Shown here one piece after another: positions 3,310 through 49,153 of a stretch of DNA of 64,000 nucleotides; position 1 is the stretch's first letter; every line of letters begins with the position of its first letter. The notes under the pieces were generated by a model, which saw only the letters and a list, made by a program, of their open reading frames with translations, searched no databases and was not told where the DNA came from. This stretch comes from Rhizobium leguminosarum (GTDB taxonomy: Bacteria; Pseudomonadota; Alphaproteobacteria; Rhizobiales; Rhizobiaceae). The stretch spans positions 1 to 64,000 of the forward strand of contig NZ_LWBS01000315.1 in assembly GCF_001652265.1 (NCBI RefSeq), given 5' to 3'. Both the position numbers and the translations under genes were made by a program.

Positions 3310-3609
3310 AGCAACATATTGTTTCGTATCTGGCACGGCCTGTTGACCGTGCAAGATCAGCGGGGATGATTACAGCGTTGCACGTCACAAATTGACGGGG
3401 AGACCGTCGACAATCACGTCATCAACGGTAGCCGCGACGATGGCCGTGCGCTCCTTCGGCTCGGCGCTACCCGTACATGGCTTATTGCCGAAGCGATGAT
3501 CGGGATCACCCTGCCACGCAGGCTCATCACACCAATCATATCGGCGGGGGCACTCGGGATCGGGTGGCTGGCGCCATGCTGCTAGACTGTCGGGTAGGCG
3601 CTAATCTCG
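3310..3609. other. Stretch without a supported gene between the SnoaL-like remnant and nicR
   Basis: Short open frames occur on both strands, but none has start signals or a recognisable product. No clear terminator follows nicR on the minus strand. Confidence 0.4.
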
Positions 3610-4092
3610 TCACCGCTCTCCAACCTCATCCTCCGCGATTTTACGAAGAAGATACAGCAACGCAATTCTCTCCGCCGGATTGAGGGGAGAGACAGTTTTC
3701 TCGCTGATGAGATATGCACGAGGGTACATGTCCTGAAGCAGCGCCTCACCCTTCGGCAGGAGAGAAATCACAACCTTGCGGGCGTCGACTCTGTCTTTGG
3801 ATAGATCGACCAATCCACGTGCTTTCAGACGCTCAACGATCCCGCGAATGGTCGCCTGATCGACCGAGGTGGCCTTTACCAACTCCACCTGGGAGCTCGG
3901 GCCGAGATCATGCAAGGCGCAGAGCGTGACGAACTGGACGGATGTCAGGTCCGGGTCACTGGCGTTCGCCTGGAAGATTGAGAGATGCCGCTGGTAGGCT
4001 TTGCGTAGCAAGTGACCTACCTGCTCGGTCACATCATAGACGTTTTCAGCCACCGCGGCTTCACGTGGGCGTTCGGTGTCTTTGACAGTCAT
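3610..4092 (-). CDS. nicR: MarR family regulator, NicR-like
   Basis: This 160-residue winged-helix protein has the MarR layout: an N-terminal dimerisation helix, the helix-turn-helix around SSQVELVKATSVDQATIRG (about residues 64-82) and the wing DLSKDRVDARKVVISLLPKG. It is the last gene on the nicC-D-E-F-X strand, as expected for a repressor of nicotinate catabolism such as NicR of Pseudomonas putida. The ATG at 4092 was chosen because it gives the same length as the related regulator at 22946; an in-frame GTG at 4149 would add 19 residues. Its likely operators are the two AGCGTATACGCT palindromes between nicC and nicA. Assignment as NicR rests on family and context. Confidence 0.75.
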   Translation of the reverse strand: MTVKDTERPREAAVAENVYDVTEQVGHLLRKAYQRHLSIFQANASDPDLTSVQFVTLCALHDLGPSSQVELVKATSVDQATIRGIVERLKARGLVDLSKDRVDARKVVISLLPKGEALLQDMYPRAYLISEKTVSPLNPAERIALLYLLRKIAEDEVGER

Positions 4093-4167
4093 ATTGGCGG
4101 GTCCATCGATTGCGGCGTCTGTGCGTCCATGCAGGACAGCAAGTTTCACCGGTCAAGGCATTCGGGC

Positions 4168-4205
4168 CCGACCTGCTTGCCCTAAAAACACGCCAAGCAG
4201 GCCGG
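4168..4205 (-). other. Intercistronic hairpin between nicX and nicR
   Basis: Arms CCTGCTTG (4172-4179) and CAAGCAGG (4194-4201) are exact complements; three further pairs outside one mismatch extend the stem to 4168-4205. The loop is 14 nt and includes a run of five A (five U on the minus strand). There is no T-tract after the stem, so it looks more like an RNA-processing or stability element than a terminator. It could lower nicR expression relative to nicX. Confidence 0.45.
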
Positions 4206-4211
4206 CTCCCG

Positions 4212-5246
4212 TTACGACTTGAAGTTGTACTGCATTTCCTTGACCGCGATGTCGCCGTTGAGGACCATCGGCTCGTCGTCGAGAAAGAGCGAGCAATTGC
4301 GCATCGGGATATCGAGATGGCATGCCGTGTCGTTCGGGCCGCCCAGTTCGTTGTTCGGACCGGTCGAGAACATGACGTTGCCGTAGAACGAGCGGGCCTC
4401 CATGCCCATGCCGCCCGGAAATTCGCCTGGTACCATGCGATGCCACTTGGCGTTCTGATTAAGACCCCAGCCGACATGGCTCATGCCCATGCCGCGCGGA
4501 TCGTTGAAACCGTCCATGTAGGATTTGACCAGCTCTGCGTCGAGGCCGCCGCGAATGTCGGTGATCCAACCATTTTCAATGGTGTAGTAGATCGGATCGC
4601 GGACGTAGATGTTCTGCGGCAGCAGAATATCGCCCGGGGCAACGACGATCGTGCCGTCGACGCCATCATCGTCACCACCGGTGAAGACAAAGCCGGATGG
4701 CCAATGATCCCAGCGGCCTGGCTCGTCGGTGCACGCATATTCCGTAATGGCCGGATAGGTGTTGAGCTTGTAGGTGACATTCGTGCCATGGGCAGAGGTG
4801 ATCCGCATCACCTTCGCTTTGGAGAGCAGCTCTCCGGCAAATTCGACGCGCTCGCGCAGTTCCTTTGTCGGCAACATGCGGGCGAGAATCTCCGGCGGTT
4901 CGACGGCGGTCAGGATACGTGTTCCGGCCGCCTGGATCGCCATCTGCTCCGGGCTGAAGAGCAGGAAGATGCAATCGATCAGCATGTCGGCGGCCTTAAG
5001 GGCCTCCACCGCTTCTGGCATGGCTGCGAGGCCTGTCTGGCCGACCGCCCATGCCCCAGCCGGCGGCACCGGCGGCAAACGCATGTGATACATTTTCGCC
5101 CCAAGACGCATGCCTGCGGCCATGAAGGCGTCGGCGTAATCGAGGCGCTCGTTGCCCTGGGTTAGGACGATGAGTTTCTCGCCCTCGTGGACGCCCGACA
5201 TCTTCAACTGATGCAGGCAGATTTCGGTGAAGCTGAATTGATCCAT
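4212..5246 (-). CDS. nicX: 2,5-dihydroxypyridine 5,6-dioxygenase
   Basis: This 344-residue protein matches NicX, the Fe(II) ring-cleavage enzyme that converts 2,5-dihydroxypyridine and O2 to N-formylmaleamate in the cytoplasm. It resembles the leucyl-aminopeptidase M29-like fold of this family rather than classic extradiol enzymes. Candidate iron ligands sit in GMSHVGWGLNQNAKW and in the C-terminal NDTACHLDIPMRN (His and Asp), near residues 265-320. The length agrees with the family (about 350). It lies 45 bp after nicF on the same strand. All other steps of the route are encoded nearby, which makes the assignment strong. Confidence 0.92.
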   Translation of the reverse strand: MDQFSFTEICLHQLKMSGVHEGEKLIVLTQGNERLDYADAFMAAGMRLGAKMYHMRLPPVPPAGAWAVGQTGLAAMPEAVEALKAADMLIDCIFLLFSPEQMAIQAAGTRILTAVEPPEILARMLPTKELRERVEFAGELLSKAKVMRITSAHGTNVTYKLNTYPAITEYACTDEPGRWDHWPSGFVFTGGDDDGVDGTIVVAPGDILLPQNIYVRDPIYYTIENGWITDIRGGLDAELVKSYMDGFNDPRGMGMSHVGWGLNQNAKWHRMVPGEFPGGMGMEARSFYGNVMFSTGPNNELGGPNDTACHLDIPMRNCSLFLDDEPMVLNGDIAVKEMQYNFKS

Positions 5247-5291
5247 GCTCGTTCCCCTATCTTACGTGAAGGCTTGGCTGTTTTTGCAAAG

Positions 5292-42026: not shown

Positions 42027-42812
42027 CTAGATGCCTTCGCCGCCGCGCACCCCGCCACGCCCGGAAAGCCCACTGACGAATTGGCGCACACGGGGATTGT
42101 CTGCGCTGTGGAAAATGTGCTCGGGCGAGCCTTGGTCGACGATGCGACCGTTCTCGGTAAAGACGACGGTGTCGCTGATCTCCTCGGCAAAGCGCATTTC
42201 ATGCGTCACAAGAATGCTGGTCATGCCGTCGCGAATGAGATCGCGGATCACCCACAGCACTTCGCCGACAGTCTCCGGGTCGAGCGCCGATGTCACCTCA
42301 TCGAACAGGACGAGTTCCGGTTTCATTGCCAGAGCCCGCGCAATCGCCACGCGCTGCTGCTGGCCACCAGACAGCTGGCCGGGGTAGGCATTTGCCTTTT
42401 CGGTAAGCCGCACCTTGTCCAGCAGTTCGCGGGCGAGCTTTTCCGCCTCGCGCCTGTCGCTGCCAAGAATGCGGGTCGGCGCCAGCACGATGTTGTCGAG
42501 CACCGTCAGATGCGGGAAAAGGTTGTATTGCTGGAACACGATGCCGACGCGCTTGCGAATTGAAATGCGCTCGGTCTCTTTGGTCAGTTGGTCAACGCGG
42601 GTGCCGCCGACGGTGATGCGGCCGCTCTGCGGCTGCACCAGCGCGTTGATGCAGCGCAGGATCGTCGACTTGCCCGAGCCGGACGGGCCGATGATGGAGA
42701 CCGCGTCACCCCTGTTGACGGTAAGGTCTATTCCCTTCAGCACTTGGGTCTGGCCGAAAGACAAACGCACGTCTTCCAGGCGGACGATCGCATTGTCGGC
42801 GGATATGTTCAT
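42027..42812 (-). CDS. Polar amino acid-type ABC transporter ATP-binding protein
   Basis: This 261-residue ATPase of the GlnQ/HisP type has Walker A GPSGSGKSTILRC, signature LSGGQQQRVAIARALA, Walker B LVLFDEVTSALDPE and the switch His in LVTHEMRFAEE. It follows the second permease by 12 bp. Confidence 0.93.
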   Translation of the reverse strand: MNISADNAIVRLEDVRLSFGQTQVLKGIDLTVNRGDAVSIIGPSGSGKSTILRCINALVQPQSGRITVGGTRVDQLTKETERISIRKRVGIVFQQYNLFPHLTVLDNIVLAPTRILGSDRREAEKLARELLDKVRLTEKANAYPGQLSGGQQQRVAIARALAMKPELVLFDEVTSALDPETVGEVLWVIRDLIRDGMTSILVTHEMRFAEEISDTVVFTENGRIVDQGSPEHIFHSADNPRVRQFVSGLSGRGGVRGGEGI

Positions 42813-42824
42813 CGTCTCAATTCC

Positions 42825-43607
42825 TCAGGCCGCGTTGAAGCGACGTTCCAGGCGTCGGGTCAGGCGGGCGATCGGGTAGCAAAGTGTGAAGAAGGCGGCC
42901 ATCACAACGATATAGGCGATGACCGTGAAATCGAGCCGGCGCACGGCAGTGCTGGCATCGGTCGCCGAATGCAGCAACTCGTGCACGCCGACCAGGGAGG
43001 CGAGCGCCGTGCCCATGGTGATCGAGGCGGCGACGTTCATCCAGGGCGGCAGCGAACGGCGCAGGCATTGCGGCAGGATGATCCAGCGCAGCGCCTGATT
43101 GCGCGAGAAACCGAGGCCCTTGGCCGCCTCCCATTGGGTGGTCGGGATGGAGAGGATCGCGCCGCGGGTGATTTCGGCGACATAGGCGCTGGCCGGAATG
43201 GCAAGCCCGATTACGGCTTTCACCCAGTCGGGAAAGGGCAGGTAGTTGCCGAACACGACGATTTCGAAGGGAAAGATATAGGTCGTAGCGAAGATCAGCA
43301 CGAGATGCGGCGCGTTGCGGAAAATCTGGACATAGGCGATGACCGGATAGCGCAACAGCCGGTAGGGCACCAGTTCGAGAATGCCGAACAGCGCGCCGAC
43401 CAGCGTGCCCAGCGCCATGGCGCAAAGGGCGATGAGGATGTTCATCCTGAAGCCGGAAGCAAGATAGGGGATCCATTCGAGCAGTTCGCGGCCGAGCGTC
43501 AGGTCGGCGAGCGACCAGACGAGGACGAGGAGCGGCAGCGCCACGAAGCCGATCTTGCGCAGGATCTTGCTGCTCCTGCGCGGTTGGAAGCGCGTGGCGA
43601 CTGTCAT
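42825..43607 (-). CDS. Amino acid-type ABC transporter permease 2
   Basis: This 260-residue permease of the HisM/GlnP type has about five helices and the coupling motif EAAKGLGFSRNQALRWIILPQ. The ATG at 43607 overlaps the stop of the first permease (ATGA); the longer open frame upstream is only a chance extension. Both permeases form the membrane channel. Confidence 0.9.
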   Translation of the reverse strand: MTVATRFQPRRSSKILRKIGFVALPLLVLVWSLADLTLGRELLEWIPYLASGFRMNILIALCAMALGTLVGALFGILELVPYRLLRYPVIAYVQIFRNAPHLVLIFATTYIFPFEIVVFGNYLPFPDWVKAVIGLAIPASAYVAEITRGAILSIPTTQWEAAKGLGFSRNQALRWIILPQCLRRSLPPWMNVAASITMGTALASLVGVHELLHSATDASTAVRRLDFTVIAYIVVMAAFFTLCYPIARLTRRLERRFNAA

Positions 43608-44350
43608 AGGCCGTACCCCGGAACGGCGAGCCTGCGCTCCACCCAGAGCCCGACACGGGCGACGACGATGTTGATGAGGCTGAAGAACAAGAGGATGACG
43701 ATCATCAGCGAGACGACGTTGTCGCGCTGCGTCCAAACCATGATCGAGGCATAGGTGATTTCGCTCACCGCGATCGCGTTGCCGACCGTGGTGAGCTTCA
43801 CGAGATTGACGAGGTTGTTGACGATTGCCGGCAGCGATGCCCGCAATGCCAGCGGCACTTCGACGTAACGCAGGATCTGCAACTGGCTGAAGCCAACGCC
43901 GCGGGCTGCCTCGACGGTCGAAGCGGGCACTGCCTCGATGCCGGCTCGGATCGCTTCGGCATGGAGGGCCGCGATATGCAGCCCGACCACCGCCACCACC
44001 CAGAAGAACGGCGACAGCGGATTGTTCTGGGCGCCGCCGACCAGATCGGACACAAAGGTATTGAGGACGAGGAAGCTGAACATCAGCTGCACCAGCGTCG
44101 GCGTGTTGCGGGTGATCTCCACGAAGGCCCGCACCGGCGCCGAAAGCCACGGCCTTCCGGACGTCAGGCAAGTAGCAAACAGCAGGCCGAAGGTCAGACT
44201 GACCGGGACGAGCAAAGCGATCAGATAGAGCGTGGTGATGAAGCCATCACGCCAGATCTGCGCCTCGTATCCCGTTGCCAGGAATTCGTAATTCAGGCCG
44301 AGCCTGTTCGTCAGGCTGACGAACAGGTCGGTCAGGTTCATGTCCTGCAT
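43604..44350 (-). CDS. Amino acid-type ABC transporter permease 1
   Basis: This 248-residue permease has about five helices and the coupling motif EAARGVGFSQLQILRYVEVPLAL. An alternative ATG three codons downstream is possible. It starts 25 bp after the binding-protein gene. Confidence 0.9.
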   Translation of the reverse strand: MQDMNLTDLFVSLTNRLGLNYEFLATGYEAQIWRDGFITTLYLIALLVPVSLTFGLLFATCLTSGRPWLSAPVRAFVEITRNTPTLVQLMFSFLVLNTFVSDLVGGAQNNPLSPFFWVVAVVGLHIAALHAEAIRAGIEAVPASTVEAARGVGFSQLQILRYVEVPLALRASLPAIVNNLVNLVKLTTVGNAIAVSEITYASIMVWTQRDNVVSLMIVILLFFSLINIVVARVGLWVERRLAVPGYGL

Positions 44351-44375
44351 GTCGTTCTACCGGTCTCTCTCCAGC

Positions 44376-45212
44376 TCACTTGCTGGCGGAGAGCACTTTG
44401 TTCTGCTGCTGCAGATATTCGGTATTGGGGAGGCGATTGGCCCTAGCGAATTCTAGGAGCTTGCCCGACGCGTGTAGCTTCTTAACGCCGGCGTCTAGGA
44501 CAGCCTGCGTGTCCTTCTCGCCCTTGCGCAACCAGATCACCGAATCCGATGGGATCAGCTCGGTGGGGAAGGGAATGGCATAGTCCTTCCATTCCTCCGG
44601 TCGGTCCTGTAGCAAAAGGCTGACTGTCGCGCCGACATGCACTGCCGCAACGCAATTGCCGCCCTGAAGAGCGAGCAGCGATTCCGGCTGGCTCGGCAAT
44701 GCCTTAACAACTGCACCAAATTCTTCCATGAGAGGCTGCGTGTAGTTGGAGCCCTGCGACACGCAGACCGGCTTGCCCTTGAGATCCGCCCAGTCCTTCA
44801 GGCCGCTGTCCTTGCGCACCACAGCCGCGCCACCGCTGCGGTCATAGGGCGTCGGCACGTAGTCGAGCACCTTGGCTCGCTCTTCGGTGTACTGCATGTT
44901 GGCGATCAGGATATCGACCTTGCCTTGCTGCAGGAACTGCACGCGGTTCGGCGGCGTCACAGTCACCGTCTCGAGTTTGACGCCGAGGTCCTCGGCCAGC
45001 GCCTGGGCAATGTCGAGATTGAAGCCCTTCTGCGCCCGCGTCTTCGGGTCAATAAAGCCGAAGGGCGCGCCGGACAGAATCACGCCGACGGTCAACTTAC
45101 CGCGTCCCTTGATGCGGTCCAGCGTGGCATCCGCGCACGCCTGCGTCGACGTCAGTGCGCAGATTGAAAGAGCAAGTCCGAAGAATAGCTGGGTGAGTTT
45201 GGTAGACGACAT
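44376..45212 (-). CDS. ABC transporter substrate-binding protein, family 3 (HisJ/GlnH type)
   Basis: This 278-residue periplasmic protein has a signal peptide (residues 1-27: LTQLFFGLALSICALTSTQACA) and the family-3 start DRIKGRGKLTVGVILSGAPFGFID, then FNLDIAQALAEDLGVKLE. It leads the six-gene minus-strand operon SBP-permease-permease-ATPase-MmgE/PrpD-monooxygenase. The ligand is unknown; the catabolic genes suggest a carboxylate or organosulfur compound. Confidence 0.92.
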   Translation of the reverse strand: MSSTKLTQLFFGLALSICALTSTQACADATLDRIKGRGKLTVGVILSGAPFGFIDPKTRAQKGFNLDIAQALAEDLGVKLETVTVTPPNRVQFLQQGKVDILIANMQYTEERAKVLDYVPTPYDRSGGAAVVRKDSGLKDWADLKGKPVCVSQGSNYTQPLMEEFGAVVKALPSQPESLLALQGGNCVAAVHVGATVSLLLQDRPEEWKDYAIPFPTELIPSDSVIWLRKGEKDTQAVLDAGVKKLHASGKLLEFARANRLPNTEYLQQQNKVLSASK

Positions 45213-45401
45213 TCCGTGCTCCTTTGTTCGACCAAGAACCTATTGGAGCCTCAAAGTTGCCACGAGCAATCACATCCTCTCTTCCAGGTGACACCGAAAC
45301 GGTTATCCTGTAATAGGCTAATTCCATAGAAAATATGCCGCGGCAGGTTGCCGTTGCGATATCCTATTTCAGCTGATCAATCCGCGACATGATTTGCTAG
45401 G

Positions 45402-45485
45402 CTATGCCCGGGGCGCGCCGCGCACGACCAGCTTTCCGAATTTTTTCCCTTCCAGAAAGCCAAGGAAAGGCTTTCGCAGTCCCTG
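45402..45485 (-). pseudogene. 3' remnant of an MDR-type NADP-dependent oxidoreductase
   Basis: On the minus strand the last residues before a TAG at 45402-45404 read LRKPFLGFLEGKKFGKLVV then RGAPRA. F-L-x-G-K-x-F-G-K-L-V-V is the typical C-terminus of zinc-independent medium-chain dehydrogenase/quinone reductases. A stop lies upstream in frame and nothing else of the gene is visible. Confidence 0.4.
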
Positions 45486-45874
45486 CTACAGCTGGTATGC
45501 CCTTCCTATTTTGGGGGCTTATGCCCAACGACCCCAAGAGCTATCACTGGGAGAATGCGCGATTGTAGACCTTGCTCGCCAAGTTGGCTGAAATCGTACC
45601 CTACCAACAAGGTTGATCTGTCGATCGTGCCGTATTTTGAAGGTGGCAAATCGGCGGCGGGGCATGGCAATCCGGAGAAGGTTCCGCGCGACCATGTGCA
45701 GAAATCTACCGCCATCCTGACGCCGATCACCAATCAAACGGCTCACTACTTTCGACCGCTTCCGGTTCTGAGGGCTCCTTTAGCCCGCCTCTGAGGGGTC
45801 CTACGCTTCGCGCGCATGGCCGACCTAAGGCCTCGTGCCTTATCGATGGGCCGGCAGGAGCCTATAGGTTTTCA

Positions 45875-46030
45875 TCGAAGCGATGCACATCCTCCCGCAG
45901 AGCTTCGAATTGAGACGGCCCACTCTTCCTCCCAACGGGCGTCTGTCGGAACAGCGGCACTCCTCCTCCCAGCCGTTGTTCGGTTCTTTTCGGAAAGCCT
46001 GCCGCACCCTCCTCCCGCGGCAGGCTTTTT
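45875..46030 (+). ncRNA. Probable small RNA with four anti-Shine-Dalgarno hairpin loops (cuckoo/alpha-r14-like)
   Basis: Four hairpins follow each other, each with CCTCCC in its loop. HP1: TCGAAGC (45875-45881) with GCTTCGA (45902-45908), plus inner TGC/GCA. HP2: AGACGGCCC (45913-45921) with GGGCGTCT (45937-45944), one bulged G. HP3: GAACAGCGGC (45949-45958) with GCCGTTGTTC (45972-45981), loop with CCTCCTCCC. HP4: AAAGCCTGCCGC (45994-46005) with GCGGCAGGCTTT (46017-46028), loop with CCTCCTCCC, followed by TT. Unpaired CCUCCUCCC loops matching the ribosome-binding complement are known from the cuckoo RNAs of alphaproteobacteria; the usual form has two hairpins, so four looks like a doubled version. 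No protein frame explains this regularity. It lies in a 960-bp gap between divergent operon ends. The 5' end is not determined. Confidence 0.8.
45994..46030 (+). terminator. Rho-independent terminator of the small RNA
   Basis: A perfect 12-bp stem, AAAGCCTGCCGC with GCGGCAGGCTTT, 11-nt loop, and a run of five T across the stem end. It doubles as the fourth CCTCCC-loop hairpin of the sRNA. Confidence 0.85.
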
Positions 46031-46171
46031 CGTTCTCAGACCCGGCTGCATCAAAGTCCCAGAACGAGCTGCGGTTCTTGCCCGCTCTCTTCGATGATCA
46101 GCGACGAAGGGGTGATCCTCGTCACACGATCTTCGTACAAGACGTCCGTCCATCGGCCCGCCCACTCAGTT

Positions 46172-46921
46172 TCAGATATTGCTTATACCGCCGTCCACGA
46201 GCATGTCGGAGCCGGTCATGAACGAACTCTCGTCAGACGCCAGGAAGACCGCTGCTGCGGCTTGTTCTTCGGGATGCCCTAGCCGCAGCATAGGAACGTA
46301 CGATGCATAGGCCTTTTGCAGAGCTGCGAGCTCTTCAGGTGTGTTTACCTGACCTTCCATGATCGCCGTCGGGATTGGGCCAGGACTCAATAGATTCGCG
46401 CGGATACCGCTATCCCTGAATTCCGCCGCCCAGGTGCGAACAAAGGAGCGCAATGCTGCTTTGGCGCCGGCATACGCTGAGTGGTTTGCGAGGCCCATGT
46501 AGTGGATTGCCGAGGCCACGAGGATGATCGAACCACCGCCTTCCATCAGAGGCAGCATCTTCTGCGTGAGGAAAAGCGGCCCTTTGGCCATCAGGTCGAA
46601 TGTCCGATCGTAATGTTCTTCCGTGATTTCGCGCAGGGGCACCTGTTCCGTGAAGCCAGCGTTCGCCACGATGACGTCCGCCTTGCCCTTCACGTTGCGG
46701 ACGGCATCAACAACACGGTCAAGATCCTCGAGCCTGGATGCGTCCGCCTGGATGGCCGTCACGTTGGATCCGATGAGCTTCACTGCTTCGTCAAGCGCGT
46801 CCTGCCTCCGGCCGAAAATAAAGACGTACGCACCCTCTTTCACAAACCGCTCGGCAATTGCGAGGCCGATGCCACTCGTACCCCCACTGATAACTGCAAC
46901 CTTGCCTTCTAATCTCGACAT
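46172..46921 (-). CDS. SDR family oxidoreductase
   Basis: This 249-residue classical SDR has SGGTSGIGLAIAERFVKEG (residues 12-30), NAGFTEQ, a catalytic-position Ser in VASAIHYMG, Tyr/Lys in YAGAKAALRSF and the end ASDESSFMTGSDMLVDGG. It is close to the SDRs at 34327 and 53385. It follows the frameshifted SDR at 47114 on the same strand, and a LysR gene lies further upstream. Confidence 0.9.
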   Translation of the reverse strand: MSRLEGKVAVISGGTSGIGLAIAERFVKEGAYVFIFGRRQDALDEAVKLIGSNVTAIQADASRLEDLDRVVDAVRNVKGKADVIVANAGFTEQVPLREITEEHYDRTFDLMAKGPLFLTQKMLPLMEGGGSIILVASAIHYMGLANHSAYAGAKAALRSFVRTWAAEFRDSGIRANLLSPGPIPTAIMEGQVNTPEELAALQKAYASYVPMLRLGHPEEQAAAAVFLASDESSFMTGSDMLVDGGISNI

Positions 46922-47113
46922 GACATTTCTTCCAATGTTTGCCCAGGCGCGCCTGGGGATGAGTTGAGTTTTTTACTCTTCCGAATGCCGTGAAAGACGC
47001 GCGCTTGCCCGCGTCGTCTTCGATGTGACCGCGTGATACCGGGAAGAGATGCGTTGGGCATTGCGCTTGAAGAGGCAGCCAAACAAGGCGCCTCGCGGCT
47101 GTCGCCACTGCGG

Positions 47114-47909
47114 CTAAGCGATTGAGCGCAAGACGCCGCCATCGACGCGCAGCGCCGCACCTGTCGTTCCGGAGGCTTGTTCCGAACAGACATAGAGGAC
47201 CATGTTCGCGACCTCTTCGGTGCTGGTGAACCTGTTGAGGAGGGTCGTCGGGCGCATCGTCCTCAGGAACTCCTGCTCGGCTTGGTCTTGCGTGATGCCT
47301 TGCGACTGCGCTGTCGCCTTCATCCAATTGGACAAGATTTCGGAATTCGTGGGACCAGGAATGACTGAGTTGACGGTGACGCCCGTTCCGCCGACGTGCT
47401 TCGGCCAACCCTCTCGAAATGGCGAGCTGGGCGGTCTTGGTCATGCCGTAGGCGATCATTTCCTTGGGGATCGCCAGCGCGGATTCGCTGCTGATGAACA
47501 CCACGCGTCCCCAGCCGCGCTCCGTCATTTTCGGCACATAATGACGGGCCGCGCGAACCCCGCTCATAACGTTGAGCTGGAACAGGTCCAGCCAGTCTTC
47601 GTCGCCAAGATCGAAGAATGACTTCGGGCGCGCCGTGCCCACGTTGTTTACGAGGATGTCGGCATCGGGAGCCTTTGCCACCAGAGAAGCGGCGCCTTCC
47701 GGAGTCGCGAGATCGGCGACAACACCAATAAATTCAGTCTCCGGGAAAAGCGTTCTGATCTCGCGAAGCGCCGTGGCGACCCTTTCCTCGCCGCGGCCGT
47801 TGATGACCACCGACGCGCCGGCGCGCGCTAACCCCTCTGCAATTGCCCGGCCAATGCCGGCTGTGGATCCCGTAACGATTGCCTTGCGGCCCTTGAGAAC
47901 GATATGCAT
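47114..47909 (-). pseudogene. SDR family oxidoreductase with a single-base frameshift
   Basis: The first frame starts MHIVLKGRKAIVTGSTAGIG after GAGGAAG and runs through NNVGTARPKS and YGMTKTAQLAISRGLAE. Near 47396 the reading shifts: removing one base restores VGGTGVTVNSVIPGPTNSEI and the rest, ending SGTTGAALRVDGGVLRSIA. The total length, 796 nt, is one more than a multiple of three, so one inserted base explains it. Catalytic residues are otherwise intact, implying recent inactivation or a sequencing error. Confidence 0.85.
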
Positions 47910-48096
47910 CAACACTTCCTCTGTGGACGTCGAGGTTTGTAACGCATGTCGAAAAAGCTGATAATATCGTATTTTCTCATACGATTGATGCCGGAACGGA
48001 ATACGTGACTGAGCGGTTCCGGGAGTGCAGGCTCTTGTTTTCCGGCTCAGCGCAGCTCTCCTCTGTCCTGAAAAAGCGCTGAATCGCACACCTTCC

Positions 48097-48195
48097 TTAC
48101 AGGCGGCGATCGAACTTGACGAAGTCCTGGAAAATGAAGGTCCCGGCAGGCGCGTTGTCCAGTTGCATGAGCGTGACGCCTTTGGAGAGTTTTCC
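48097..48195 (-). pseudogene. Short 3' remnant of an oxidoreductase-like gene
   Basis: The minus strand reads GKLSKGVTLMQLDNAPAGTF then IFQDFVKFDRRL before a TAA at 48097-48099. The ending resembles the C-terminus of the NADP-binding protein at 54197 (LSEGGLLVQARGNSWGQLIF, KDLVKFD). An in-frame stop lies just upstream. Treat the family as tentative. Confidence 0.3.
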
Positions 48196-48238
48196 AAATT
48201 GTCAGATCGTAAGCAGGAAACGATTTGCCCCGGTGTCC

Positions 48239-49126
48239 TTAGAGTCGCTTTTGGATGGCGCTAGCCAGATAATCCGTCACGCGGCGTACACGAGCGGAGA
48301 CGAACCGGCGTTTCGGCCAGATGAAGGAGACGTCCCGAACGTCTCGAACGTACTCATCGAGCACTGTAATAACATCAGGGTGCGAAAGCTCTTCAACCAG
48401 CGAGACCTTGGCGAACAAACCGATGCCTACGCCCGCCAGGACGCCCGCCCGGATGGTTTCGACACTGTTGGAGGAGAGATTTCCATGGACTGCTACGCTA
48501 AAGGGGCCCTTTGGCCCGACAAATGGCCAATTTGCCGATTCGCTAACGGCGTACAAGAGACAGTTGTGATCGGCGAGCTCGGCAGGCGTTTGGGGAATGC
48601 CGTGTTTCTCGAAATAGGACTTTGATCCGACGCATACCAGCGGACTTCCTGCCACGCGCCTCACAACGGCGTCGGGTTCGTCGACGGGGCCCACTCTGAT
48701 TGCAAGGTCAATTCGATCTTCCACCATGTCGCGCATAGCGTCCGACAAAACCAAGTCCATCTCAAGCCCCGGAAAAGTAGCCAGAAGATCCGGGATAAGT
48801 GGCAGGATGTGAAGGCGGCCAAACGTGGTAGCCGCAGCCACCCGGATAGATCCGGACATATCAAGTGTGCTGCCCATGGCCTCACGGCTGGCGTCTTCAA
48901 TCTCCTCCAGGAGCGGTTTCATCCTGTCGAAGTATCTCTGGCCCTGATCTGTGAGGGTGACGCGTCGGGTGCTTCGATGAAACAGCGCCACGCCAAGGCG
49001 ATTCTCAAGCGCGCCAATAGCTTTGCTGACCGCAGGCTGTGATTTGCCAGTTCTCCGCGCCGCGGCCGAAAAGCCGCCCGCATCCACCACCGCAATAAAA
49101 GTCTCCAGTTCCTGAAGCCGATCCAT
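48239..49126 (-). CDS. LysR family transcriptional regulator
   Basis: This 295-residue regulator begins MDRLQELETFIAVVDAGGFS with the helix-turn-helix AARRTGKSQPAVSKAIGALENRLGVALFHRSTRRV, followed by an effector domain (about 90-295). The ATG at 49126 has GGAG upstream; two earlier in-frame ATGs lack one. It is divergent from the frameshifted methyltransferase; their intergenic region shares a 40-bp segment with the LysR/SDR intergenic region at 53250. Confidence 0.9.
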   Translation of the reverse strand: MDRLQELETFIAVVDAGGFSAAARRTGKSQPAVSKAIGALENRLGVALFHRSTRRVTLTDQGQRYFDRMKPLLEEIEDASREAMGSTLDMSGSIRVAAATTFGRLHILPLIPDLLATFPGLEMDLVLSDAMRDMVEDRIDLAIRVGPVDEPDAVVRRVAGSPLVCVGSKSYFEKHGIPQTPAELADHNCLLYAVSESANWPFVGPKGPFSVAVHGNLSSNSVETIRAGVLAGVGIGLFAKVSLVEELSHPDVITVLDEYVRDVRDVSFIWPKRRFVSARVRRVTDYLASAIQKRL

Positions 49127-49153
49127 TCTGTTCTCCAACGGCATGAATTCCAT

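Follow-up and report, generated by a model that had tools for sequence, protein, structure and literature searches.

Does a short stretch of Rhizobium leguminosarum DNA in which the hexamer CCTCCC recurs four times encode a new, doubled kind of small RNA, or is it a known RNA in an unusual setting? The stretch lies in the 64,000 nucleotides of contig NZ_LWBS01000315.1 that were analysed here as a whole, to which we refer as the window. A sequence-only reading had proposed four stem-loops, each presenting CCTCCC, and the positions of the hexamer (starts at 45891, 45928, 45965 and 46011, one per loop) together with folding confirmed this. In the window as a whole CCTCCC is not over-represented but only clustered, with 20 copies found against 36.8 expected. 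A chance cluster was rejected: in 300 first-order Markov sequences of 64 kb, scored on both strands, clusters within 130 nt held at most three copies (in 3 of 300), and none reached the four observed. The fold of 181 nt has a z-score of -4.31 and none of 200 shuffles was equally stable.

Most details of the proposed structure also stood. A fuller loop sequence had been claimed for two of the loops, and within the small RNA perfect CCTCCTCCC is indeed confined to loops 3 and 4 (starts at 45962 and 46008), while the loop motif is shortened to CCTCCC in hairpins 1 and 2. The last stem, taken to be an intrinsic terminator, has 12 Watson-Crick base pairs (14 counting G-U), is GC-rich and runs into a T-rich end. 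Stems of 7-12 bp had been described; there are four stems, but H2 is bulged and weaker than that of the orthologue L044, with fold energies of -10.6 and -15.4 kcal/mol, respectively, for stretches of slightly different length. The G-U pair noted in the third stem exists, but as a single wobble that is not itself compensatory. By analogy with SmelA099, discussed below, the 5' end of the RNA is probably at 45873-45875. The coordinates of the RNA and of the surrounding features are collected in Table 1.

Table 1. Position of the small RNA, its hairpins and the remnants around it, numbered from the first base of the window.
Feature	Position	Strand	Basis or remarks
Exonuclease 3'-end remnant and DUF1127 upstream-region remnant	45698..45866	+	blastn to L114 3427-3598 and to other loci
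Putative captured DUF1127 promoter	45839..45867	+	CTTATC 45839-45844, 17-nt spacer, CTATAG 45862-45867
Deletion junction	45866..45867		matches split at query 57/58; ca. 400 bp carrying DUF1127 and the sRNA's own promoter absent
Four-hairpin sRNA, ar14/cuckoo family, SmelA099 subtype	45875..46030	+	Rfam match, 72-row alignment, SmelA099 alignment
Hairpin 1 (H1)	45875..45908	+	7+3 bp; loop CATCCTCCC; outside Rfam model
Hairpin 2 (H2)	45913..45944	+	5 bp, bulged G, 3 bp; loop CTTCCTCCC; stem weakened
Hairpin 3 (H3)	45949..45981	+	10 bp, one G-U; loop CCTCCTCCC
Hairpin 4 (H4), intrinsic terminator	45992..46030	+	loop CCTCCTCCC plus one inserted C
Truncated dinB (DNA polymerase IV), last ca. 22 codons, convergent with the sRNA	46051..46118	-	blastn to L114

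The suggestion that the RNA is of the cuckoo/ar14 type, with anti-Shine-Dalgarno loops, was borne out by a covariance-model search, the check that the sequence-only reading had itself proposed. The Rfam family ar14 (RF02344) matches 45907-46032 with its model end to end (1-123) at 92.6 bits, well over the gathering threshold of 58.8. Membership of CcsR1 (RF02791, 24.3 bits against a cut-off of 65.3) and of ar7 (23.4 bits, under the cut-off) was rejected. The ar14 match covers H2-H4, with H1 outside the three-hairpin Rfam model. Most orthologues display three hairpins with CCUCCUCCC unpaired, and the window copy does so in part: the three stem-loops are present, the motif is perfect only in H3 and H4, and H2 carries CUUCCUCCC. 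The source genome, an assembly of 472 contigs with 5.44% contamination, contains 11 ar14 matches, nine of them above the cut-off. These nine comprise five four-hairpin copies (the window included), three three-hairpin copies and a degenerate one; the two matches under the cut-off, L010 and L011, were left out of the counts. Among the own-genome copies, L007 has four hairpins with the motif lost from hairpin 1, the degenerate copy (L009, 1501-1614) has one CCTCCC remaining, and L010 (1501-1606) consists of a single strong hairpin whose loop carries CCTCCTCCC.

Four loops had also been viewed as an unusual doubling of a two-hairpin RNA, and this part of the proposal does not hold, since a 2011 publication already covers members with two, three or four hairpins (PMC3927594). 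That paper describes SmelA075, with three hairpins, and SmelA099, with four, as having similar CCUCCUCCC loops throughout; the grouping of the two as one family with a variable number of hairpins had been suggested (PMC3927594). Alignment of the SmelA099 DNA (Sinorhizobium meliloti pSymA 1328175-1328334, RFMSmelA099) with the window gave 166 identical positions in 214 columns, running through all four hairpins into the end of dinB. The order of the four hairpins, the anti-Shine-Dalgarno loops and the terminator stem are the same, and dinB lies convergent downstream in both, although only a fragment of it is left in the window. The window thus shows the features that define RFMSmelA099, i.e. 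four consecutive hairpins with anti-Shine-Dalgarno loops and both homology and synteny with SmelA099. The two differ in the stem sequences of H2 and H3 and in the number of perfect CCTCCTCCC loops, four in SmelA099 and two in the window copy. A DUF1127 gene was not found by tblastn within 900 nt upstream of either RNA. In view of the alignment and the shared dinB, the four-loop RNA of the window is another copy of a published subtype; the four-hairpin form is not new and what is unusual is the rearrangement of this copy.

The family is widespread among relatives. ar14 is present in all 148 congeneric genomes searched and the window DNA was matched by blastn in 146 of them, the own genome included in both figures. 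Among the matches listed, all rows except the window's own start at query 164-177 and so take in H1; by hand count such rows come from at least 88 of the 147 other congeneric genomes, and weaker matches may cover less. In the plasmid collection the window DNA has matches in 487 records, and in 456 of these the match covers 80% or more of the query; 486 records are named for rhizobial genera and one is from Roseateles. Compensatory changes in the stems of homologues, on which the sequence-only reading had staked its RNA, were sought in an alignment of 72 rows (the window, SmelA099 and 70 further copies). In this alignment 97.1% of the cells are paired, as compared to 34-51% with slid partners, and both partners changed in 12 of the 41 pairs, a number reached by one of 500 shuffles; the covariation score was above that of all 500. 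Seven of the pairs changed on both sides are in H3, three in H2 and one each in H1 and H4, so support is strongest for H3 and H2. Gaps in the alignment are often one or two bases long while the stems covary.

Does H1, which the Rfam model leaves out, form part of the RNA? That it lies outside, with only a three-hairpin ar14 RNA being real, is hardly credible. The model begins at 45907 and 15 of 71 rows fail to form the outermost base pair of H1, but this same pair switches between U-A (41 rows) and A-U (13 rows), H1 is present in the homologues among the matches listed, and SmelA099, reported as 160 nt from deep sequencing (PMC2873474), takes in H1. Comparison of these sequences indicates that H1 most likely belongs to the RNA. 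Perfect CCTCCTCCC is found in the loop of H1 in 62 and of H2 in 68 of the 72 rows. The loop contexts follow an A-B-B-A order, with GCA[CT]CTCCTCCCGC in H1 (63/72 rows) and H4 (69/72) and the other context in H2 (51/72) and H3 (59/72). Because of this order, the four-hairpin form looks like a three-hairpin ar14 RNA with one extra terminator-type hairpin at the 5' side, not like a doubled two-hairpin RNA.

Two annotated relatives, L114 and L116, have the gene order exonuclease, DUF1127, sRNA and convergent dinB. In L114 this block is located on a conjugative Rhizobium plasmid (Rhizobium brockwellii pRltCC275eA) and in L116 on a tumour-inducing plasmid (Agrobacterium fabrum pTiAg57, 136042-144205); genes for ImuA and a Y-family polymerase come next in both. 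In other loci the annotation lacks dinB (L113), the exonuclease (L115), both of these (L117), or the exonuclease and DUF1127 (L118). Among 33 loci examined for the two neighbours, 29 congeneric and four from the own genome, DUF1127 is encoded at most about 340 nt upstream in 23 and some dinB is found downstream in 14. Of the own-genome copies, L005 still has a DUF1127 gene beside it and L006 the greater part of one. The best dinB match in L048, L050, L052, L053 and L071 is a short C-terminal stretch of 25-49 residues with the sRNA retained, which somewhat resembles the window; only the best match per locus was considered.

The window aligns to L114 in three pieces: 45465-45662 to 2307-2506, 45698-45866 to 3427-3598, and 45870-46118 to 4001-4247, the last reaching into dinB (annotated in L114 at 4180-5262). 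The window lacks the main part of the exonuclease gene, some 400 bp that include DUF1127 and the native promoter of the sRNA, and most of dinB; the remaining piece of dinB is so short that tblastn with DinB did not detect it. As the 400 bp are missing, the DUF1127 upstream region abuts the start of the sRNA, and the deletion likely took place between the start regions of DUF1127 and of the sRNA, which resemble each other. The junction was found in no other genome or plasmid among the matches listed. Outside the window, the listed congeneric matches end at query position 57 or before (74 in four rows on the DUF1127 side) or start at 54 or later. Each of the 15 listed plasmid matches is broken in two, so that a query of 104 nt stretches over about 500 nt of the record; DUF1127 is annotated inside this stretch in 12, and the other three records are unannotated. 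The pieces at 45465-45662 and 45698-45866 are fragments of the plasmid locus, from upstream of and from the 3' end of the 3'-5' exonuclease gene, respectively. According to Pfam, the minus-strand neighbours at 42027-49153 encode an ABC-transporter ATPase, permease and solute-binding protein, one SDR and one LysR regulator; a second SDR-like stretch near 47100-48000 was recognized by eye only. Lying beside open ABC-transporter and SDR genes, the fragments would represent a decayed plasmid-type segment.

What could transcribe the RNA at this junction? Upstream of DUF1127 the alignment of relatives contains CTTATC in 15 of 15 rows and, after a spacer of 17 nt, CTATAT in 10 of 15, representing 13 distinct loci as L049 and L114, and likewise L048 and L117, are the same records. 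The corresponding -10 element captured in the window reads CTATAG as compared to CTATAT in most relatives, and a scan for E. coli-type promoters found none. We infer that the captured DUF1127 promoter may drive the window sRNA. The native box GCAT[A/G][G/A]CTG, located ca. 61 nt before H1 in 67 of 73 other four-hairpin copies, is absent as an exact pattern upstream of the window sRNA. Also absent there is TGCA-N6-GCAT, the LsrB-bound motif of NfeR1 (PMC10746234), a promoter feature outside the ar14 RNA model that occurs as an exact pattern at -71/-72 in 24 of the 73 copies. The sequence GCATGGCCG at -61 was considered as an eroded native box and rejected, the alignment placing it in the DUF1127 upstream region.

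Similar promoter boxes and starts of DUF1127 and sRNA are seen in most of L043-L049, L051, L053, L055, L057, L113, L114, L116 and L117, with the DUF1127 boxes about 400 nt before the sRNA. TGC-N7-GCAT stands at -72, counted from the similar start sequence, before DUF1127 in 13 rows out of 14 (11 of 12 distinct loci) and before the sRNA in 11 of 14 (10 of 12); this box comparison omits L047, whose leader is outside the pattern, and the repeat identities omit L113, L114, L116 and L117, for which the sRNA start was set one or two bases off. In the captured promoter of the window the LysR-type box reads CGC in place of TGC, its one change. These boxes suggest one shared LysR-type activator for DUF1127 and the sRNA, an idea that is not wholly new since in Brucella one LysR regulator is reported to activate AbcR2, of another sRNA family, and three DUF1127 genes (PMC12595884). 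The 60 bases upstream of the window sRNA are identical to ten native sRNA promoters at 24-28 positions, a level that 0-16 of 500 shuffles reach, and we take this weak likeness to be one between the DUF1127 and sRNA promoters. Tentatively, the locus can be pictured as a natural promoter swap in which twin LysR-box promoters recombined and left a partly selected sRNA on the DUF1127 promoter, separated from DUF1127 itself.

Has the copy remained under selection? The upstream remnant differs by 20.0% from the consensus of ten relatives, which themselves differ by 2.0-15.1%, whereas the sRNA differs by 3.2% (relatives 0.6-3.9%). For the dinB remnant the value is 17.4%, against 9.8-19.8% in relatives with the exclusion of L055, whose 54.7% looks non-homologous. 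Since dinB falls within the range of the relatives, extra decay is evident on the upstream side only, and the sRNA looks held back as compared to that side, not clearly as compared to the dinB side. Changes private to the window are four substitutions and one inserted base, each at a position where 64-71 of the 72 rows agree: an A at 45889 in the loop of H1, substitutions at 45912, 45926 and 45936 in the H2 region, and the extra C of H4. A fifth substitution in the sRNA, counted in the divergence, falls where relatives have either A or T and is not private. Two private changes are in the anti-Shine-Dalgarno loops 1 and 2, and the window is among only four of 74 copies with two or fewer perfect 9-mers. 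Changes at such near-invariant sites suit relaxed selection, and the pattern fits a partly relaxed paralogue that is either rewired or decaying.

The explanation that we prefer, with a probability of about 0.65, is that the window encodes a trans-acting sRNA of the ar14/SmelA099 subtype, a secondary paralogue behind a DUF1127 promoter that probably works mainly through H3 and H4. The C-rich anti-Shine-Dalgarno loops, which would be redundant, would pair with the ribosome-binding sites of several mRNAs and, by analogy with NfeR1, lower their translation. NfeR1 has three redundant anti-Shine-Dalgarno motifs, and genetic tests confirmed the silencing of some of its predicted targets, most of them transport genes (PMC7143759). 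Because loops 1 and 2 are mutated, the window sRNA probably acts mainly via H3 and H4. The deletion would have removed DUF1127 together with the sRNA's own LysR-box promoter and left the sRNA behind the promoter of DUF1127, with altered or reduced expression. A point against this explanation is that Northern blotting in S. meliloti gave a reliable signal for only one of the six NfeR1 copies (PMC7143759). The CTATAG of the captured -10 element, the negative E. coli-type promoter scan, the changed LysR-type box and the fragmented, partly contaminated assembly also count against it. Our confidence is lowered by the private changes at near-invariant sites and by the dinB remnant not being extra-diverged.

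Alternatively the copy could be dead, having lost its promoter with the deletion, being untranscribed, and being mostly intact since too little time has elapsed, which we find unlikely though still to be reckoned with. In favour of this, the native box kept by 67 of 73 other copies is gone, the five private changes all hit near-invariant sites, H2 is weakened, and of the exonuclease gene and dinB only fragments are left. Against this, the divergence of the upstream remnant exceeds the range of the relatives while that of the sRNA stays within it, and CTTATC-N17-CTATAG is suitably spaced from where the sRNA starts. A quite improbable further explanation has the loops act globally rather than on specific mRNAs, mimicking the 16S rRNA anti-Shine-Dalgarno sequence or being soaked up by abundant mRNAs. 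It would agree with a motif that is very short and general and with several copies per genome, but the genetic confirmation of NfeR1 targets mentioned above (PMC7143759) points to silencing of particular mRNAs.

The published four-hairpin form is thus common in Rhizobium and on rhizobial plasmids, with a current Rfam model that takes in just three of its four hairpins, and the window adds a rearranged copy to this widespread family of regulatory RNAs. It offers a natural experiment on whether the sRNA functions once DUF1127 is no longer next to it; if the promoter swap is true, the sRNA has been parted from its usual protein partner. DUF1127 beside such RNAs has been reported as the CIN1 locus, and the DUF1127 protein CcaF1 is an RNA-binding protein that, with RNase E, takes part in maturation of CcsR RNA (PMC10253847).

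Among known systems, ar14/NfeR1 (RF02344) resembles the window sRNA in occurring in several copies per genome and in its anti-Shine-Dalgarno loops and terminator; the window copy differs by the extra 5' hairpin and by the absence of the LsrB-type motif in front of it. The CcsR1-4 RNAs of Rhodobacter with CcaF1 share the CCUCCUCCC loops with the window sRNA, and a DUF1127 gene, co-transcribed in the case of CcsR1, is located beside the RNA, as it is in relatives of the window locus. Unlike CcsR, the window sRNA is not accompanied by DUF1127, and it has four stem-loops, whereas CcsR has two (PMC3927594).
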